Part shown: piece by piece, positions 34,907 to 57,793 of the stretch | Layout of the letters: each line of letters begins with the position of its first letter | Numbering within the stretch: position 1 is the stretch's first letter | Source of the DNA: a bacterium | GTDB taxonomy: Bacteria > Elusimicrobiota > Elusimicrobia > UBA1565 > UBA9628 | Reading direction: 5' to 3' | Assembly (NCBI GenBank): GCA_021822495.1 | Contig: JAKAQO010000004.1 | Coordinates: 1 to 64,000 of the forward strand | DNA: 64,000 nucleotides | The notes under the pieces: model-generated | What the model was told of the DNA's origin: nothing | What the model saw: the letters and a program-made list of their open reading frames with translations, nothing else | Database searches by the model: none | Translations under genes and position numbers: made by a program

Positions 34907-35077
34907 CTAAAACAGAAAGATGGACGCTAAAATCAAGGCAAGGCCGATGAAAAGCTTTTCAACTTCGCCCTCGTTTTTTCCCCATCGGATATAGAAGGCT
35001 CCGAGCAAACTCAAAATGAGCCCGATGAGGCCTTTAAAAGCGCCCCAAGCGGTGAAATGGAGGTTTAATCCAGGCAT
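34907..35077 (-). CDS. Small two-helix membrane protein (56 residues)
   Basis: Reading the minus strand from ATG 35077 gives 56 residues ending at TAG 34907. Two hydrophobic helices are evident: about residues 10-31 (WGAFKGLIGLILSLLGAFYI) and 41-56 (KLFIGLALILASIFLF), joined by a charged loop RWGKNEGEVE. Its ATG overlaps the TAA of the fabF-like gene (TAATG), so it appears to be the translationally coupled last gene of the fatty-acid-synthase operon. No family was recognised. A role in anchoring the enzymes or handling the lipid product is only a guess. Confidence 0.7.
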   Translation of the reverse strand: MPGLNLHFTAWGAFKGLIGLILSLLGAFYIRWGKNEGEVEKLFIGLALILASIFLF

Positions 35078-36381
35078 TAAGGCTCCCAGCGCTTAAATAA
35101 AAGGCAACCGTTGACGTCTCCAAAACCGAAAGACGCTTTGATGACATAGTCCAGCGTTTTGTCGATTTTCTGATGAGGAATACTAGCCGCTATTTTCTGA
35201 ATTTCAGGATGAACCTTCTCGCAGTTAATCGAAGGATGGACATAAGAGTGGACGATTTGGTCCACCACCGCCACCGATTCTAAGGCTCCCGCAGCTCCCA
35301 AGGAGTGCCCAATCATGGATTTCGTTGATTGGATGAGCGGAAATTTAGACGGTTCTAGCTCTAATGCCCGTAACCAACTGCCAACTTCCCGAGGATCTGC
35401 CGAAGTCGAGGTCAAATGCCCATTGATGAGAGAAATTTTTGACGGAGAAACGCCGGAATCCTCAATGACCTTTCGAATGCAACGAATAACTCCTTCCGGA
35501 TTGGGGAATGTCATCGTGCCCCCGTCTCTTTGACCTCCGGAATTGCAATAGGCGGCCACGAGTTCGCAAAGAATCTTGGCTCCCCTTTTTTGAGCCGATT
35601 CTAAACTTTCAAGCCTTAAGACCCCCGCCCCTCCAGCGGGAACAAAACCGCAGGCTCCTGCGCCCATGGGACGCGAACCTTTTTCCGGAGCCTCGTTATA
35701 TTTCGAGCACAAAACGTCTCGCATCGCGTCAAAACCGGACCAGCTTCCGTAATGCGTGCCCTCGGAACCTCCGGCGAACATGGAATCGGCGTATCCTAAC
35801 TGGATATGTTTCCAGGCTTCAAAAATCGCCTCGGTTCCCGTATTACAAGCCGAGCTATTGGAACTGGTTTGGCCGCCAGCCCCCAACAACTTTCCCACCG
35901 CCACCGAAATGGAACTGGACATCACCTGGGGAACGATATCGGTTCCCATCGCCGCGGTCCCTCGCCCCGATTCCTGATTTTTGGCGTCAAAAACGACGGG
36001 AGCCAAGGAATCAAGAATCGTGTCCATTCCCCCGATGCCGGAGCCAATAATGACGCCGGTGTCCCACAAAACGGGAGTATCTCTTTTCCCTTTCACCCAA
36101 TCAATCTCAAGTCCGCTAGAGCGCGCGCACTCAAGAGAAGCCATGACCGCGTAAACCATCGCCTCGTTGATTTTATTGAGCTCGCTTTCGGGGATGACTT
36201 TTAAAACGTCTTCTTCCTCGACCGGCGGAACCCCGCCAATTTGGCAAAGATAATTCATTTCCTTTAGATTCTCTCTAAAAGAGATGCCGGATTTCCCTTT
36301 TTGAAGCGCCTCTCGAAAGTTTTCAATTCCAACGCCGTTGGGCGCAACCGCCCCCACTCCCGTAATGACCACTCTTTTCAT
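35077..36381 (-). CDS. Beta-ketoacyl-ACP synthase II-type enzyme (FabF-like)
   Basis: A 434-residue thiolase-fold condensing enzyme. It starts MKRVVITGVGAVAPNG as FabF proteins do. The Cys-His-His triad is intact: nucleophile Cys in SSACNTGTEAI, NGHLTSTSADPREVG with the first His, and KSMIGHSLGAAGALE with Lys and second His. It elongates an acyl chain. ATG 36381 is set by SD GGAGG and by the ATGA overlap with a 19-codon mini-cistron. The sequence is divergent from housekeeping FabF, suggesting a dedicated product. Confidence 0.9.
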   Translation of the reverse strand: MKRVVITGVGAVAPNGVGIENFREALQKGKSGISFRENLKEMNYLCQIGGVPPVEEEDVLKVIPESELNKINEAMVYAVMASLECARSSGLEIDWVKGKRDTPVLWDTGVIIGSGIGGMDTILDSLAPVVFDAKNQESGRGTAAMGTDIVPQVMSSSISVAVGKLLGAGGQTSSNSSACNTGTEAIFEAWKHIQLGYADSMFAGGSEGTHYGSWSGFDAMRDVLCSKYNEAPEKGSRPMGAGACGFVPAGGAGVLRLESLESAQKRGAKILCELVAAYCNSGGQRDGGTMTFPNPEGVIRCIRKVIEDSGVSPSKISLINGHLTSTSADPREVGSWLRALELEPSKFPLIQSTKSMIGHSLGAAGALESVAVVDQIVHSYVHPSINCEKVHPEIQKIAASIPHQKIDKTLDYVIKASFGFGDVNGCLLFKRWEP

Positions 36382-36437
36382 GGTTTCCTCCTGCACGAAA
36401 TCTGGAACCAACCATTTCTTCGCTTAGGCTCAGTCAT
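36378..36437 (-). promoter_or_regulatory. Repeated 60-base mini-cistron element (copy 1), upstream of fabF-like gene
   Basis: Exactly between the dehydratase and fabF-like genes lies a 20-codon frame (19 residues, beginning MTEPKRRNGWFQ and ending RKP). Its ATG overlaps the dehydratase TGA (ATGA) and its own TGA overlaps the fabF ATG (ATGA). The element matches 51 of 60 bases of 56474-56533, where the same arrangement precedes resB. Both copies can pair TGGTTCC with the SD-bearing GGAAACCA just before the start, so passage of a ribosome could open the downstream start. This mechanism is inference. Confidence 0.6.
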
Positions 36438-36847
36438 GGTTTCACCTCGAAAAATTTTTCATCCGCCAAGGAAATAACTCCGCTAAAAACCGCTTCCCCG
36501 TCCTTGGGCCCGCCGTAAAAAAAAGATTCCGCCTTAAAGTAAAAAAAATCGGGATTTAATTTTCCCTCTTGAACCGAAACTTTGAAAAGGATGGTTTCTC
36601 TCGGACGCACCATCTTCTTAAATAAGGCGTTCTCTATCGAGTGAAACAGCGCCGTTTTTTCTATCTCAGGATTTATCCCTCTCAACAAAAGGGCTCCGGC
36701 CTGAGAAGCCATCTCGACCAATTTAATTCCAGGAACGACGGGGTTTCCGGGAAAATGCCCAGCACAATCTTCTTCCTTCCAGGTATAAATTGCTGACAAA
36801 TGAGAATCCGTTTTTTCCAAAACCTGATCGATAAATCCCCATCTCAT
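36434..36847 (-). CDS. FabZ-like 3-hydroxyacyl-ACP dehydratase
   Basis: A 137-residue hotdog-fold protein. AGHFPGNPVVPGIKLVEMASQAGALLL contains the catalytic His (about residue 31) and the Glu (about 45) of FabZ-type dehydratases. It would remove water from the 3-hydroxyacyl intermediate. ATG 36847 overlaps the reductase stop (ATGA), and its TGA overlaps the mini-cistron ATG. Order in the operon follows the chemical cycle. Confidence 0.85.
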   Translation of the reverse strand: MRWGFIDQVLEKTDSHLSAIYTWKEEDCAGHFPGNPVVPGIKLVEMASQAGALLLRGINPEIEKTALFHSIENALFKKMVRPRETILFKVSVQEGKLNPDFFYFKAESFFYGGPKDGEAVFSGVISLADEKFFEVKP

Positions 36848-55070: not shown

Positions 55071-56477
55071 TCAAGCCTCCATTTTATTAAAAGATAATCT
55101 TGATTTCATTTCCGCCGTTAAGCGGGCAAACTCTTTTTCAAAATCTCGCCCGCCTTTTGAGCTCCAAGCGCCAATAGAAATTTTAGTTTTTTCATTTTCA
55201 CCGCGTTCCAGAAGAACCCAAAAACGCCGGCGATGGAGATAGAAAAGCAAAATAAGCCCCAAAACCCACAAGAGAGCCCCCCCAATGACCCACGGATATC
55301 CCGGATCATAGGCAACTTGGATTCCCGAAAACAAAACAGGGTCAACAGAGACCAGAGAAAATGGCGGAACCTCCGCGTGTTCTAAAGTTCCGTCTGGATT
55401 TTCTTTAAGGCAAACCTTCGGATAGAGGACGAAAAGCCACAAGGGCGGCGTCGGTTTTCCCGCAACGGTAAATAAAAATCTCACCGCCGGATTTTTAAGG
55501 TCCAGGGAAGCGGTATCGGCGCGACCGTCTGAGATCGTAAAGTCCGGCATCAAAACGTCCGCCTCAACCGCAAACGGAGTCCCCGGAATCTTTTTAGGCA
55601 CGCGCTGCTGAAGGGTCAAGGTCGTCCCATCAAGATTTAATGTCGCGCTTCTAAACATTCCCGCCGCTCCCCAAGAAGCCTGATAAAAACGAATTCCGTG
55701 AATATCCAGGGGGTGATTAACGCGAATGGTTTTGGCTCCCAAAAGTTCGTCGCCGGCCTTAACGCGCAAAACCGAGGAGAAGAGACTTGGCTGAAAAGTT
55801 TTAGGGTAAAAATGGACGGTAAATTTTTCGACTGAAAGAGTCCAGGGACGGTTTTTCATCGCGGCCGTTTCCCCTTCCATCACCGGAACCATCTCGGTAA
55901 AGCCGTACAAGGCCTTAAGCCCAGCCCCAATCAAAATCACCACCAAGGCAATATGCGCGATATAAGAGCCCCAACGCTGCATCCGATGTTTGGTCGCTAA
56001 AAAAGCCGCGCCGGAGGAAGTCTTAACCTCATCATGGACGGCATAGTCTTGACCTTTAAAAAAAGATTTCGTTCTTTTAAAAGTCTCGTCAAAACCCAAA
56101 GATGAATCAAGAGAAGACTGAAAGGGTTTTAGACGCAAGGCTTCTTCTCTTTGCGCCCAATGTTTTTCAAGTTCTTCTTCATTGGTATTTTCCGGCGGCA
56201 AGGCCGTCGCATTAAGATCTGGAGGCTGATTCCAAAGCTTGCACACGATAATATCAAAAGCCATAAGCCCCAAAAGCGCTATAAAGTACCAGGTTTGATA
56301 GAGATGAAAGGCGCCAAAGAAATTGAGAATCCGAAATGAAAAAGGATGGAGCGAGCGGTACATCTCGACTTTATCCGGAGAAGTCTCGATCTGGGGGAGA
56401 AAGGTTCCAAGCGCGCTTAAGAGCGCGATAATGGCCCCTAAAATAATGTTAAAACGAATTGAACGGAAAAGTTTCAT
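55071..56477 (-). CDS. resB: Cytochrome c biogenesis protein ResB/Ccs1
   Basis: A 468-residue protein. Three N-terminal helices (about 7-25, 54-75, 155-172), a large periplasmic domain and a last helix (about 395-415) give the ResB layout. Partner of CcsA. The start MKLFRSIRFNIILG at 56477 overlaps the end of the repeated mini-cistron (ATGA), as the fabF-like gene does 20 kb away. Glycolytic genes lie upstream in the same direction. Confidence 0.92.
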   Translation of the reverse strand: MKLFRSIRFNIILGAIIALLSALGTFLPQIETSPDKVEMYRSLHPFSFRILNFFGAFHLYQTWYFIALLGLMAFDIIVCKLWNQPPDLNATALPPENTNEEELEKHWAQREEALRLKPFQSSLDSSLGFDETFKRTKSFFKGQDYAVHDEVKTSSGAAFLATKHRMQRWGSYIAHIALVVILIGAGLKALYGFTEMVPVMEGETAAMKNRPWTLSVEKFTVHFYPKTFQPSLFSSVLRVKAGDELLGAKTIRVNHPLDIHGIRFYQASWGAAGMFRSATLNLDGTTLTLQQRVPKKIPGTPFAVEADVLMPDFTISDGRADTASLDLKNPAVRFLFTVAGKPTPPLWLFVLYPKVCLKENPDGTLEHAEVPPFSLVSVDPVLFSGIQVAYDPGYPWVIGGALLWVLGLILLFYLHRRRFWVLLERGENEKTKISIGAWSSKGGRDFEKEFARLTAEMKSRLSFNKMEA

Positions 56478-56533
56478 GGTTTCCTTTCGTACAAATTTTG
56501 GAACCAACCATTTCCTCGCTTAGGCTCGGTCAT
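56474..56533 (-). promoter_or_regulatory. Repeated 60-base mini-cistron element (copy 2), upstream of resB
   Basis: A 20-codon frame (19 residues, MTEPKRGNGWFQ ... RKP) ends with TGA overlapping the resB ATG. It differs from the copy at 36378-36437 at 9 of 60 positions, has the same length, and keeps the SD (AAGG) and the TGGTTCC/GGAAACCA pairing. The 3' half also conserves a second frame in phase with the downstream gene (VPxFVxxET before Met). Unlike copy 1, it follows a 48-base gap after pgk. The role is unknown; see findings. Confidence 0.6.
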
Positions 56534-56581: not shown

Positions 56582-57793
56582 TTACGAGGAAATCGCCGAG
56601 AGCCCCGGCAAAACCTTGCCTTCTAAAAGCTCCAAACTCGCGCCGCCGCCGGTTGAACAATGACTCATCTGCTCGGAAAGACCGCTTTCGCTTAAAACCG
56701 CCAGGCTGTCTCCGCCACCGACAATCGTCACCGCTCCGTTTTTCCCGGCCTTGGCCATCGCCTCGGCGATCGCCTTACTTCCAGCCGAAAACTCCGGAAT
56801 TTCAAAGACTCCCATCGGGCCGTTCCAAAAGATGGTCTTGGCTTTTTCAATTTCTTCCAAGAAAATTTCAATCGTATGCGGACCAATGTCGGCGCCGATA
56901 AGCCCCTCCGGAATCGCCATTCCCTGAGTGACGGAAGTCTTAACGCCCGGCTTGATTTCTGAAACCGCCACATGATCGGCCGGAAGTAAGCAAGTCACCT
57001 TCTTAGCATAAGATTTGTCGATGACCGCCTGAGCATCTGCAATTTTCTCCTGATCAAGAAGAGACTTCCCAATCGAAACTCCTTGCGCCGCTAAAAACGT
57101 GTAGGCCATGCCGCCGCCAATGAGAAGGGTATCCACGCGGTCTAAAAGTTTGTTTAGAACTCGCAGTTTATCGGAAACCTTGGCCCCCCCAATAATCGCG
57201 ACAAAGGGTCTCGCTGGATTTCCAATCACCCGGTCCAAAAACTCAAGTTCTTTTTGTACCAGAAAACCAACGCAGGAAGGAAGTATCTTGGGAATCCCGA
57301 CGGTCGAGGCATGCGCGCGGTGAATGGCGCCAAAAGCGTCTTCGACAAAGACCTCGCCGAGGTTTGCCAAGCTCTTGGCGAACTCGGGATCGTTTTTTTC
57401 TTCGCCGGCATGAAAGCGAAGATTTTCCATCAAAACAATTTCGCCTTCTTTCAGGGCCAAAACCGCTTTTTTAGCCTCCGGCCCGACGCAATCCGAAGAA
57501 AAAGAGACCGGTATTCCAAGAATTTTTTCCAAGGCCTTCGCGACCGGCTTAAGGCTGTATTTCTCTTCAGGCTTTCCCTTGGGACGCCCCAAATGAGAGA
57601 TCAAAACAATTTTCGCCTTGGCTTCCATCAAGTATTTCAAGGTCGGCAAAGCCGCGCGCAAACGGCTGTCGTCAGAGACCTCGCCGCCATGAAGGGGAAC
57701 ATTAAAATCAACCCGGACCAAAACCTTTTTCTCTTGAACAGGCATTTCCTGCAACCTTTTCAGTTTCAAGGCCGGCTTTTGAGTTTCTTCCAT
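56582..57793 (-). CDS. pgk: Phosphoglycerate kinase
   Basis: A 403-residue PGK. VLVRVDFNVPL, the substrate-binding SHLGRPKG, GGAKVSDKLRVL and the C-terminal GGGDSLAVL are present. It makes ATP in lower glycolysis. Preceded by a GGGGGGA SD. It lies with gapdh on one strand, but an arginase-like gene separates them. Confidence 0.97.
   Translation of the reverse strand: MEETQKPALKLKRLQEMPVQEKKVLVRVDFNVPLHGGEVSDDSRLRAALPTLKYLMEAKAKIVLISHLGRPKGKPEEKYSLKPVAKALEKILGIPVSFSSDCVGPEAKKAVLALKEGEIVLMENLRFHAGEEKNDPEFAKSLANLGEVFVEDAFGAIHRAHASTVGIPKILPSCVGFLVQKELEFLDRVIGNPARPFVAIIGGAKVSDKLRVLNKLLDRVDTLLIGGGMAYTFLAAQGVSIGKSLLDQEKIADAQAVIDKSYAKKVTCLLPADHVAVSEIKPGVKTSVTQGMAIPEGLIGADIGPHTIEIFLEEIEKAKTIFWNGPMGVFEIPEFSAGSKAIAEAMAKAGKNGAVTIVGGGDSLAVLSESGLSEQMSHCSTGGGASLELLEGKVLPGLSAISS

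Follow-up and report, generated by a model that had tools for sequence, protein, structure and literature searches.

Two copies of one short repeat split start codons in the window

The window, by which we mean the whole 64,000-nt stretch of DNA analysed, carries two related 60-base stretches on its minus strand, one leading into a FabF-like gene and the other into resB (Table 1). The first-pass annotation had described each as a 19-residue minicistron joined to the next gene; direct reading of the sequence bore out its coordinates, and a base count gave the 51 of 60 identities that it had reported between copy 1 and copy 2. Both frames (MTEPKRRNGWFQISCRRKP in copy 1 and MTEPKRGNGWFQNLYERKP in copy 2) are 19 codons long and end in a TGA that does overlap the ATG of the gene that follows, FabF-like and ResB, respectively. 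The ATGA junction described between copy 1 and the gene upstream is also present, and that gene is FabA-like. Within each frame, as had been stated, an SD-like motif for the downstream gene can be read, GGAGG in copy 1 and AAGGA in copy 2. The core pattern occurred twice in the window compared to zero occurrences in shuffled sequence, which, together with the 19 full copies found genome-wide (see below), excludes a chance origin of the pair. An Rfam scan of the window detected only a tRNA and gave no match for the element.

Table 1. Features of the two copies of the element and of their neighbouring genes.
Feature	Position	Strand	Remark
Copy 1, inserted unit TGACTGAG...GGAAACCA, 56 nt	36381..36436	-	splits A from TG of the FabF-like start codon
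Copy 1, minicistron, 19 codons + TGA	36378..36437	-	opens at the former start codon; its TGA overlaps the new ATG
Copy 1, internal SD-like GGAGG for the new start codon	36387..36391	-	read from sequence
Copy 1, terminal stem, 5' arm ATGGTT	36410..36415	-	own-genome alignment pair count and cross-genome covariation
Copy 1, terminal stem, 3' arm AACCAT, includes AU of the new start	36380..36385	-	same pair counts and covariation as the 5' arm
Copy 1, downstream gene: beta-ketoacyl-ACP synthase, FabF-like	35077..36381	-	PF00109/PF02801
Copy 1, upstream gene: FabA-like domain	36434..36847	-	takes its stop TGA from the element's 5' end (ATGA overlap)
Copy 2, inserted unit TGACCGAG...GGAAACCA, 56 nt	56477..56532	-	in the resB start codon
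Copy 2, minicistron, 19 codons + TGA	56474..56533	-	TGA overlaps the resB ATG
Copy 2, internal SD-like AAGGA	56482..56486	-	read from sequence
Copy 2, downstream gene: ResB-like cytochrome c biogenesis protein	55071..56477	-	PF05140, E 1.4e-72
Copy 2, upstream gene: phosphoglycerate kinase (pgk)	56582..57793	-	PF00162; ends 48 nt before the element, no overlap

A dispersed repeat family of Elusimicrobiota

The first-pass annotation had proposed looking for further copies in the genome and its relatives, and both yielded them. Searches of the window's own 2.2-Mb genome with blastn and a covariance model built from 13 of its copies, on which all own-genome copy counts rest, returned 19 full copies (best E value 2e-25), and more than 130 copies were examined across one class of Elusimicrobiota. 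All 19 own-genome copies directly precede a gene and have the same orientation as that gene. They fall into short, long (110 nt) and extra-long (161 nt) classes. The distance from ATG to ATG in the short form is 56 nt in 10 of 13 copies and 57 nt in the other three, while the long forms add hairpin modules of 54 and 51 nt and still keep the minicistron frame open. A 122-nt form with an extra palindromic insert lies before a serS-looking gene in JACPSV010000254 (L141), and there too the frame is unchanged, its end overlapping. A related solo hairpin, GACCGAGCCTAGGCGAGGAAGTGCCGCTTCC...GAAGCGGCC, lies just 3' of a tRNA-like sequence (L041, G000:C11:52428-52479); the same module is nested in the extra-long start-codon elements L018, L039 and L040.

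The host genes in the own genome include fabF, resB, ftcD, nuoD, nuoF, another proton-antiporter subunit, rpe, cysS and lgt, along with genes for pyruvate dehydrogenase E1 beta, an ABC transporter, a MaoC-like dehydratase and others, and they share no theme. Near-identical copies are found at non-homologous loci, as is characteristic of mobile elements.

A pattern scan of 84,980 species returned 64 stretches, about 56 of them from Elusimicrobia (some titled just 'bacterium'). The matches outside Elusimicrobia (L090, L097, L099, L116, L120, L126, L132 and L143) lack the ACC[AG]TG end and were discarded as chance. The covariance model matched in 25 of 57 genomes (own and relatives), and the strict pattern was present in 16 of 295 genomes of the phylum, all from the window's own class; it was absent from the other classes of Elusimicrobiota among these 295. 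Viral contigs (IMG/VR) contained no match to the element pattern.

Empty sites in sister species reveal precise insertions

For each own-genome copy, we removed the element, fused the two flanks and looked for the resulting sequence in four sister species (G001 to G004). Most of the 19 sites were empty in at least one of them, the matching flank running straight into the ATG. As the flanks of these empty sites are intact, the copies are precise insertions. The site of copy 1 is empty in G003 (L184, matching the GAGGTGAA..|ATGAAAAGAGTGGTC flank), and copy 2 is absent from resB in G001 and G004 (L236 and L227). Similarly, the cysS start in G003 reads caaatagtagaatattccg|ATG, compared to an identical flank plus the element in the own genome, and the ABC transporter gene of G003 starts gaacgcttcc|ATG with no element. 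A few older copies, at the nuoD, rpe and antiporter loci, are common to sister species. Shared, tandem or decayed copies were found among the sister-species loci (L180, L198, L216, L234 and L235), and the decayed remnants retain ATG...ATG (L234, ATGACCGAGATTAAACCATG; L235). In the tandem copies L080, L216, L316 and L318, an element is inserted into the new start codon of another.

The element inserts after the first base of the start codon

The inserted unit is TGACCGAG...(stem-loop)...ACCA, about 52-58 nt long, with lengths from 50 to 59 among genomes. Insertion takes place after the first base of the start codon and before TG (N|TG). Among 107 distinct copies from relatives, the 5' and 3' start codons were ATG/ATG in 93, GTG/ATG in 6, TTG/ATG in 3, ATG/GTG in 5 and GTG/GTG in none. 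Element-free orthologues of copies with a non-ATG first codon start with GTG or TTG at four of six tested sites (L092, 5 of 7 orthologues; L352, 3 of 4; L353, 3 with an alignable start; L313, a single orthologue). At the other two, L283 and L308, they have ATG, indicating that some first codons have mutated. For three ATG/GTG copies tested, ATG was present in 8 of 9 element-free orthologues. The codon pairs and the orthologue starts together establish N|TG insertion, in which the new ATG combines an A from the element with the old TG. Target-site duplication of the start codon, which the ATG...ATG arrangement might evoke, is ruled out by the lack of GTG/GTG pairs and by a 5' codon that follows the original start.

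Exceptional copies fit a wider N|T rule. L309 turns a TAG stop into TGA, L059 and L069 lie at the end of the upstream gene, and L280 (G003:C29:3227-3286) is an in-frame, open 57-nt insertion in the signal peptide of a solute-binding-like protein whose site is empty in four sister genomes (G|TT or G|TC). Two more copies, L130 (JACQPF010000225) and L134 (JACQPF010000051), are apparent in-frame insertions of 54 nt within genes. They belong to a diverged 54-nt subfamily, GAGGCGAGGAAATGGTTGG...AAAACCA, and L130 has a partial flanking duplication, GATAGCTTTCCTTCC. L083 and L094 end in ACCG, not ACCAT, and fall outside the N|T rule. Target duplication amounts to at most one base, with TG always on the 5' side and, in the exceptions, T plus any base on the 3' flank; no target site duplication of 2 bp or more, as DDE-transposase MITEs would leave, was found. 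The ends themselves are just TG...CA with an imperfect TGACC/TGGTT(C) match, and the long form has a better terminal palindrome.

Start codons as the predominant niche

We examined 134 copies for a downstream ORF; the set of start-codon copies comprises 119. Of the 134, 114 run directly into an ORF that has at least 60 codons or is open to the end of the available sequence, and roughly 4 others stand in tandem ahead of a start. The pattern scan requires no 3' start codon, and about 47 of its 56 Elusimicrobia matches were nevertheless at starts. Copies elsewhere, whether at stop codons, within genes or between them, are rare. By comparison, the window contains about 62 intergenic ATGA sites against a rough estimate of 35 at start codons, so that a neutral element seeking ATGA would be expected at starts in roughly a third of cases. 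Position +4, right after the start codon, is A in 103 of 119 copies and position -1, right before it, is a pyrimidine in 96 of 119, indicating a YA|TGA target preference. The sole start-codon insertion seen in reverse orientation, L088 (JACQJP010000050), regenerates an ATG; it appears to lie on the other strand, where the pheS stop and the pheT start overlap (gene identities judged by eye).

The element rebuilds the signals of translation

After insertion, the minicistron, usually of 18-19 codons, opens at the old start codon, which retains the upstream context that it had before. The element's 3' CCA and the old TG give the host gene a new ATG, and where an upstream gene overlapped the start, the element's 5' TGA substitutes for the stop of that gene. 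In 59 of 134 copies a frame open for at least 80 codons comes in from upstream and ends at the element's TGA; some of these are expected by chance in GC-rich genomes.

Of the 119 start-codon copies, 80 have a minicistron that ends in an ATGA overlap, 25 have one that ends within the element, 7 have one that ends shortly past it in a different frame, and 7 have one fused in frame to the gene. In the first two groups stop and start are as close as translational coupling calls for. In 112 of 119 copies, then, the minicistron terminates at or ahead of the gene or in a different frame from it (copies from one genome are related, so these counts are not independent), which makes termination-reinitiation the likely way in which, judging from the arrangement of frames, host-gene expression would survive, helped by direct loading at the internal SD. 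Tight coupling is not essential, given the seven in-frame fusions and the few minicistrons that stop after 4 codons. An SD-like core precedes the new ATG in 95 of 119 copies. In raw counts, such a core precedes the first ATG in 47 of 119, and a -10-like box lies within 18 nt of the first ATG in 34 of 119, which suggests leaderless starts. TATAAT-like -10 boxes stand 5-10 nt before the first ATG in L002, L113, L127, L128, L136, L141 and L142, a placement suggesting that leaderless genes may be frequent targets.

A terminal stem supported by comparison among genomes

Preceded by the conserved bases GCGAGGAA, the terminal stem ATGGT...ACCAT is nearly invariant across copies. The first-pass annotation had proposed that TGGTTCC pairs within the element and hides the SD. 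The stem, TGGTT(GG)nTCC/GGAAACCA, does exist; it is weak in both window copies, where it is no more stable than shuffled sequence (RNA MFE z -0.50 and -0.72), and the MFE fold of copy 1 differs from it. Stem pairs in the own-genome alignment were without covariation. Across genomes, covariation extends beyond the core: pair 6 changes from TA to CG in 24 rows, and pairs 7-8 occur as GC, AU and UA. Double-changed cells numbered 37 compared to 13.6 ± 2.5 in shuffles and no more than 11 in slid versions, with the arms taken from the unit ends, no gapped alignment, and related rows inflating the covariation counts. Since neither the window folds nor the own-genome pairs gave support, it is solely the comparison among genomes that argues for the stem. 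As for hiding the SD, the stem covers the GGA of the SD in the window's own genus; many relatives instead have the SD in the loop, with the AU of the start codon taken up in the stem. The stem may act as DNA, in mobilisation, or as RNA, at initiation.

A probable miniature mobile element that would keep its host gene expressed

We consider it highly probable that Elusimicrobiota harbour, in this repeat and its nested forms of 110 and 161 nt, a non-autonomous miniature mobile element that splits start codons precisely while its host gene is kept expressed. Ribosomes would load at the old start and translate the minicistron, thereby opening the terminal stem, then stop at the TGA overlapping the new ATG and restart there; alternatively, they may load directly at the SD borne by the element, and in either case the host gene would remain expressed. 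Copies would accumulate at starts, and more rarely at stops or in-frame sites, because insertion does the least damage there and because of the YA|TGA preference. Of the 'mobile translational-control cassette' suggested in the first-pass annotation, mobility is strongly borne out by the many copies, the empty sister sites and the tandem and decayed copies. The control part stands insofar as the element rebuilds translation around itself, and falls short as control in response to a signal, the targets being unrelated housekeeping genes that gain and lose it between sister species.

The absence of any duplication longer than one base, the CA| motif at both ends and the terminal hairpin weakly suggest an HUH-type enzyme, and a transposase of the single-strand type (HUH/TnpA-REP-like) might mobilise the element in trans. 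A search for an autonomous partner was unsuccessful. None of 32 Y1-transposase loci, two of them in the own genome and 30 in relatives, had a clear match to the core or 3' end in its vicinity; there were only isolated 10-base 5'-end matches, and these neighbouring transposases were rejected as the cognate enzyme. One exact 10-base match to the element's 5' end, ATGACCGAGC, lies about 0.9 kb from a Y1 transposase domain (L251, G026:C279, position 612, minus strand), while the matches at other Y1 loci have one mismatch; chance is the likely source. The two own Y1 (TnpA-REP-like) transposases, L024 (G000:C11) and L025 (G000:C5), are flanked by separate palindromic repeat families, AAAAAGGGGACTGTCCCCTTTTT and AATTAAGTGATGTGTCCCC....

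Whether the insertion machinery itself recognises translation starts, for example through YATGA plus an SD or through an mRNA or R-loop context, bears on a variant that is compatible with the explanation above and contrasts with selection purging other sites. The presence of all 19 own copies at starts despite the greater number of intergenic ATGA sites in the window, the almost constant orientation with the gene (one reverse copy, L088) and the +4 and -1 base biases all speak for such targeting. Against it, the stop-codon, intragenic and intergenic copies show that the rule is N|T and not start codons as such, and purifying selection combined with a benefit at starts could yield an identical picture; we thus treat start recognition as a serious but rather doubtful proposal. 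A broader claim, that these are the first described start-codon-specialised mobile elements, in which insertion favours starts and the element is shaped to rebuild stop, SD and start at once, so that insertion into essential genes is near-silent even when repeated or in tandem, is one that we hold tentatively, with slightly more doubt than belief.

If the repeats marked a regulon, with stem-loop and minicistron acting as a signal- or protein-controlled attenuator or translational switch, one would understand why the stem covaries, why the minicistron overlaps the gene start and why the SD or start codon lies partly within the stem. Such a regulatory leader is nonetheless unlikely: the own-genome host genes (fabF, resB, ftcD, nuoD, nuoF, rpe, cysS, lgt and so on) have nothing in common, sister-species orthologues mostly lack the element, leader peptides are not conserved in frame, and some copies sit in stop codons or inside genes. 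The minicistron itself has been taken for a small functional peptide, and many copies in the genus do retain MTExKRGNGW...RKP, with the tiny frame open in most copies. In other genomes, however, KRGNG is replaced by SEEMV through a shift of one base, with the nucleotides still conserved, lengths vary from 50 to 59, and stops after 4 or 9 codons are common, so that nucleotides rather than residues are conserved. With at least two frames used among genomes, a functional peptide was rejected, and a micropeptide MTEPKRGNGW... spreading as a tiny gene is scarcely credible. Finally, the element could resemble Rickettsia palindromic elements (RPEs) as a coding insert tolerated as an open in-frame peptide. 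L280, L130 and L134 (57, 54 and 54 nt) are of this kind and seven start-codon copies fuse in frame, but together these make up only about 10 of the 134 copies; the majority are read in another frame than the gene, with a stop between, and the minicistron frame counts contradict in-frame tolerance as the main mode, leaving this reading very improbable.

Relation to known systems and significance

ATGA overlaps, an SD in the upstream frame and a stem over the initiation region are features of leader peptides and translational coupling; what differs here is that the coupling module is mobile and tied to no regulon. RPEs are about 100-150 bp long and known as in-frame fusions with a conserved peptide (PMC2229807, PMC10969869). 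Like RPEs and coding MITEs, the element is a small, non-autonomous, translatable palindromic repeat that coexists with genes, with few in-frame copies here. It differs from RPEs in being about 55 bp long, in lying nearly always at start codons and in having its peptide parted from the gene by a stop and restart; 3 of 134 copies are inside genes, 7 of 119 are fused, and the peptide, read in at least two frames, is not conserved. With REP/REPIN sequences and TnpA-REP (PMC8266576, PMC3116915) it shares a short hairpin, many copies, the lack of a visible target duplication and a CA motif at either end; for the TnpA-REP of Marinomonas, the cleavage sites are CA and CT (PMC8266576). In contrast to those sequences, the element sits in start codons and is not extragenic, and other repeats flank the own-genome Y1 transposases. 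The bases before the element's palindrome are GCGAGGAA, with neither a GTAG nor a CGTC tag.

The TAACTGA repeats of Beggiatoaceae, variable tandem heptamers a few bases 5' of start codons, likewise stand right before the starts of unrelated, often essential genes; the accessible part of that report describes no start-codon insertion, stem or minicistron for them (PMC4679880). The bypassing inserts of Magnusiomyces capitatus mitochondria and T4 gene 60, over which ribosomes hop within the coding sequence, are also short in-gene inserts neutralised at the level of translation, whereas here ribosomes would be expected to stop and restart (PMC5009743). A literature search with partial coverage returned no report of start codons being split by an element that also restores stop, SD and start. 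Miniature mobile repeats are already a known kind; the start-codon niche is the new part.

The start codons of essential genes would be expected to rank among the worst targets for a transposon, and this family carries with it the very signals that its insertion destroys. This raises the question of which enzyme moves the element and whether that enzyme can see start codons. The element also accounts for apparent tiny genes and mis-annotated N-termini in Elusimicrobiota, and its distribution constitutes a natural, replicated termination-reinitiation experiment, in which dozens of genes occur with and without one 56-nt insert in sister species.
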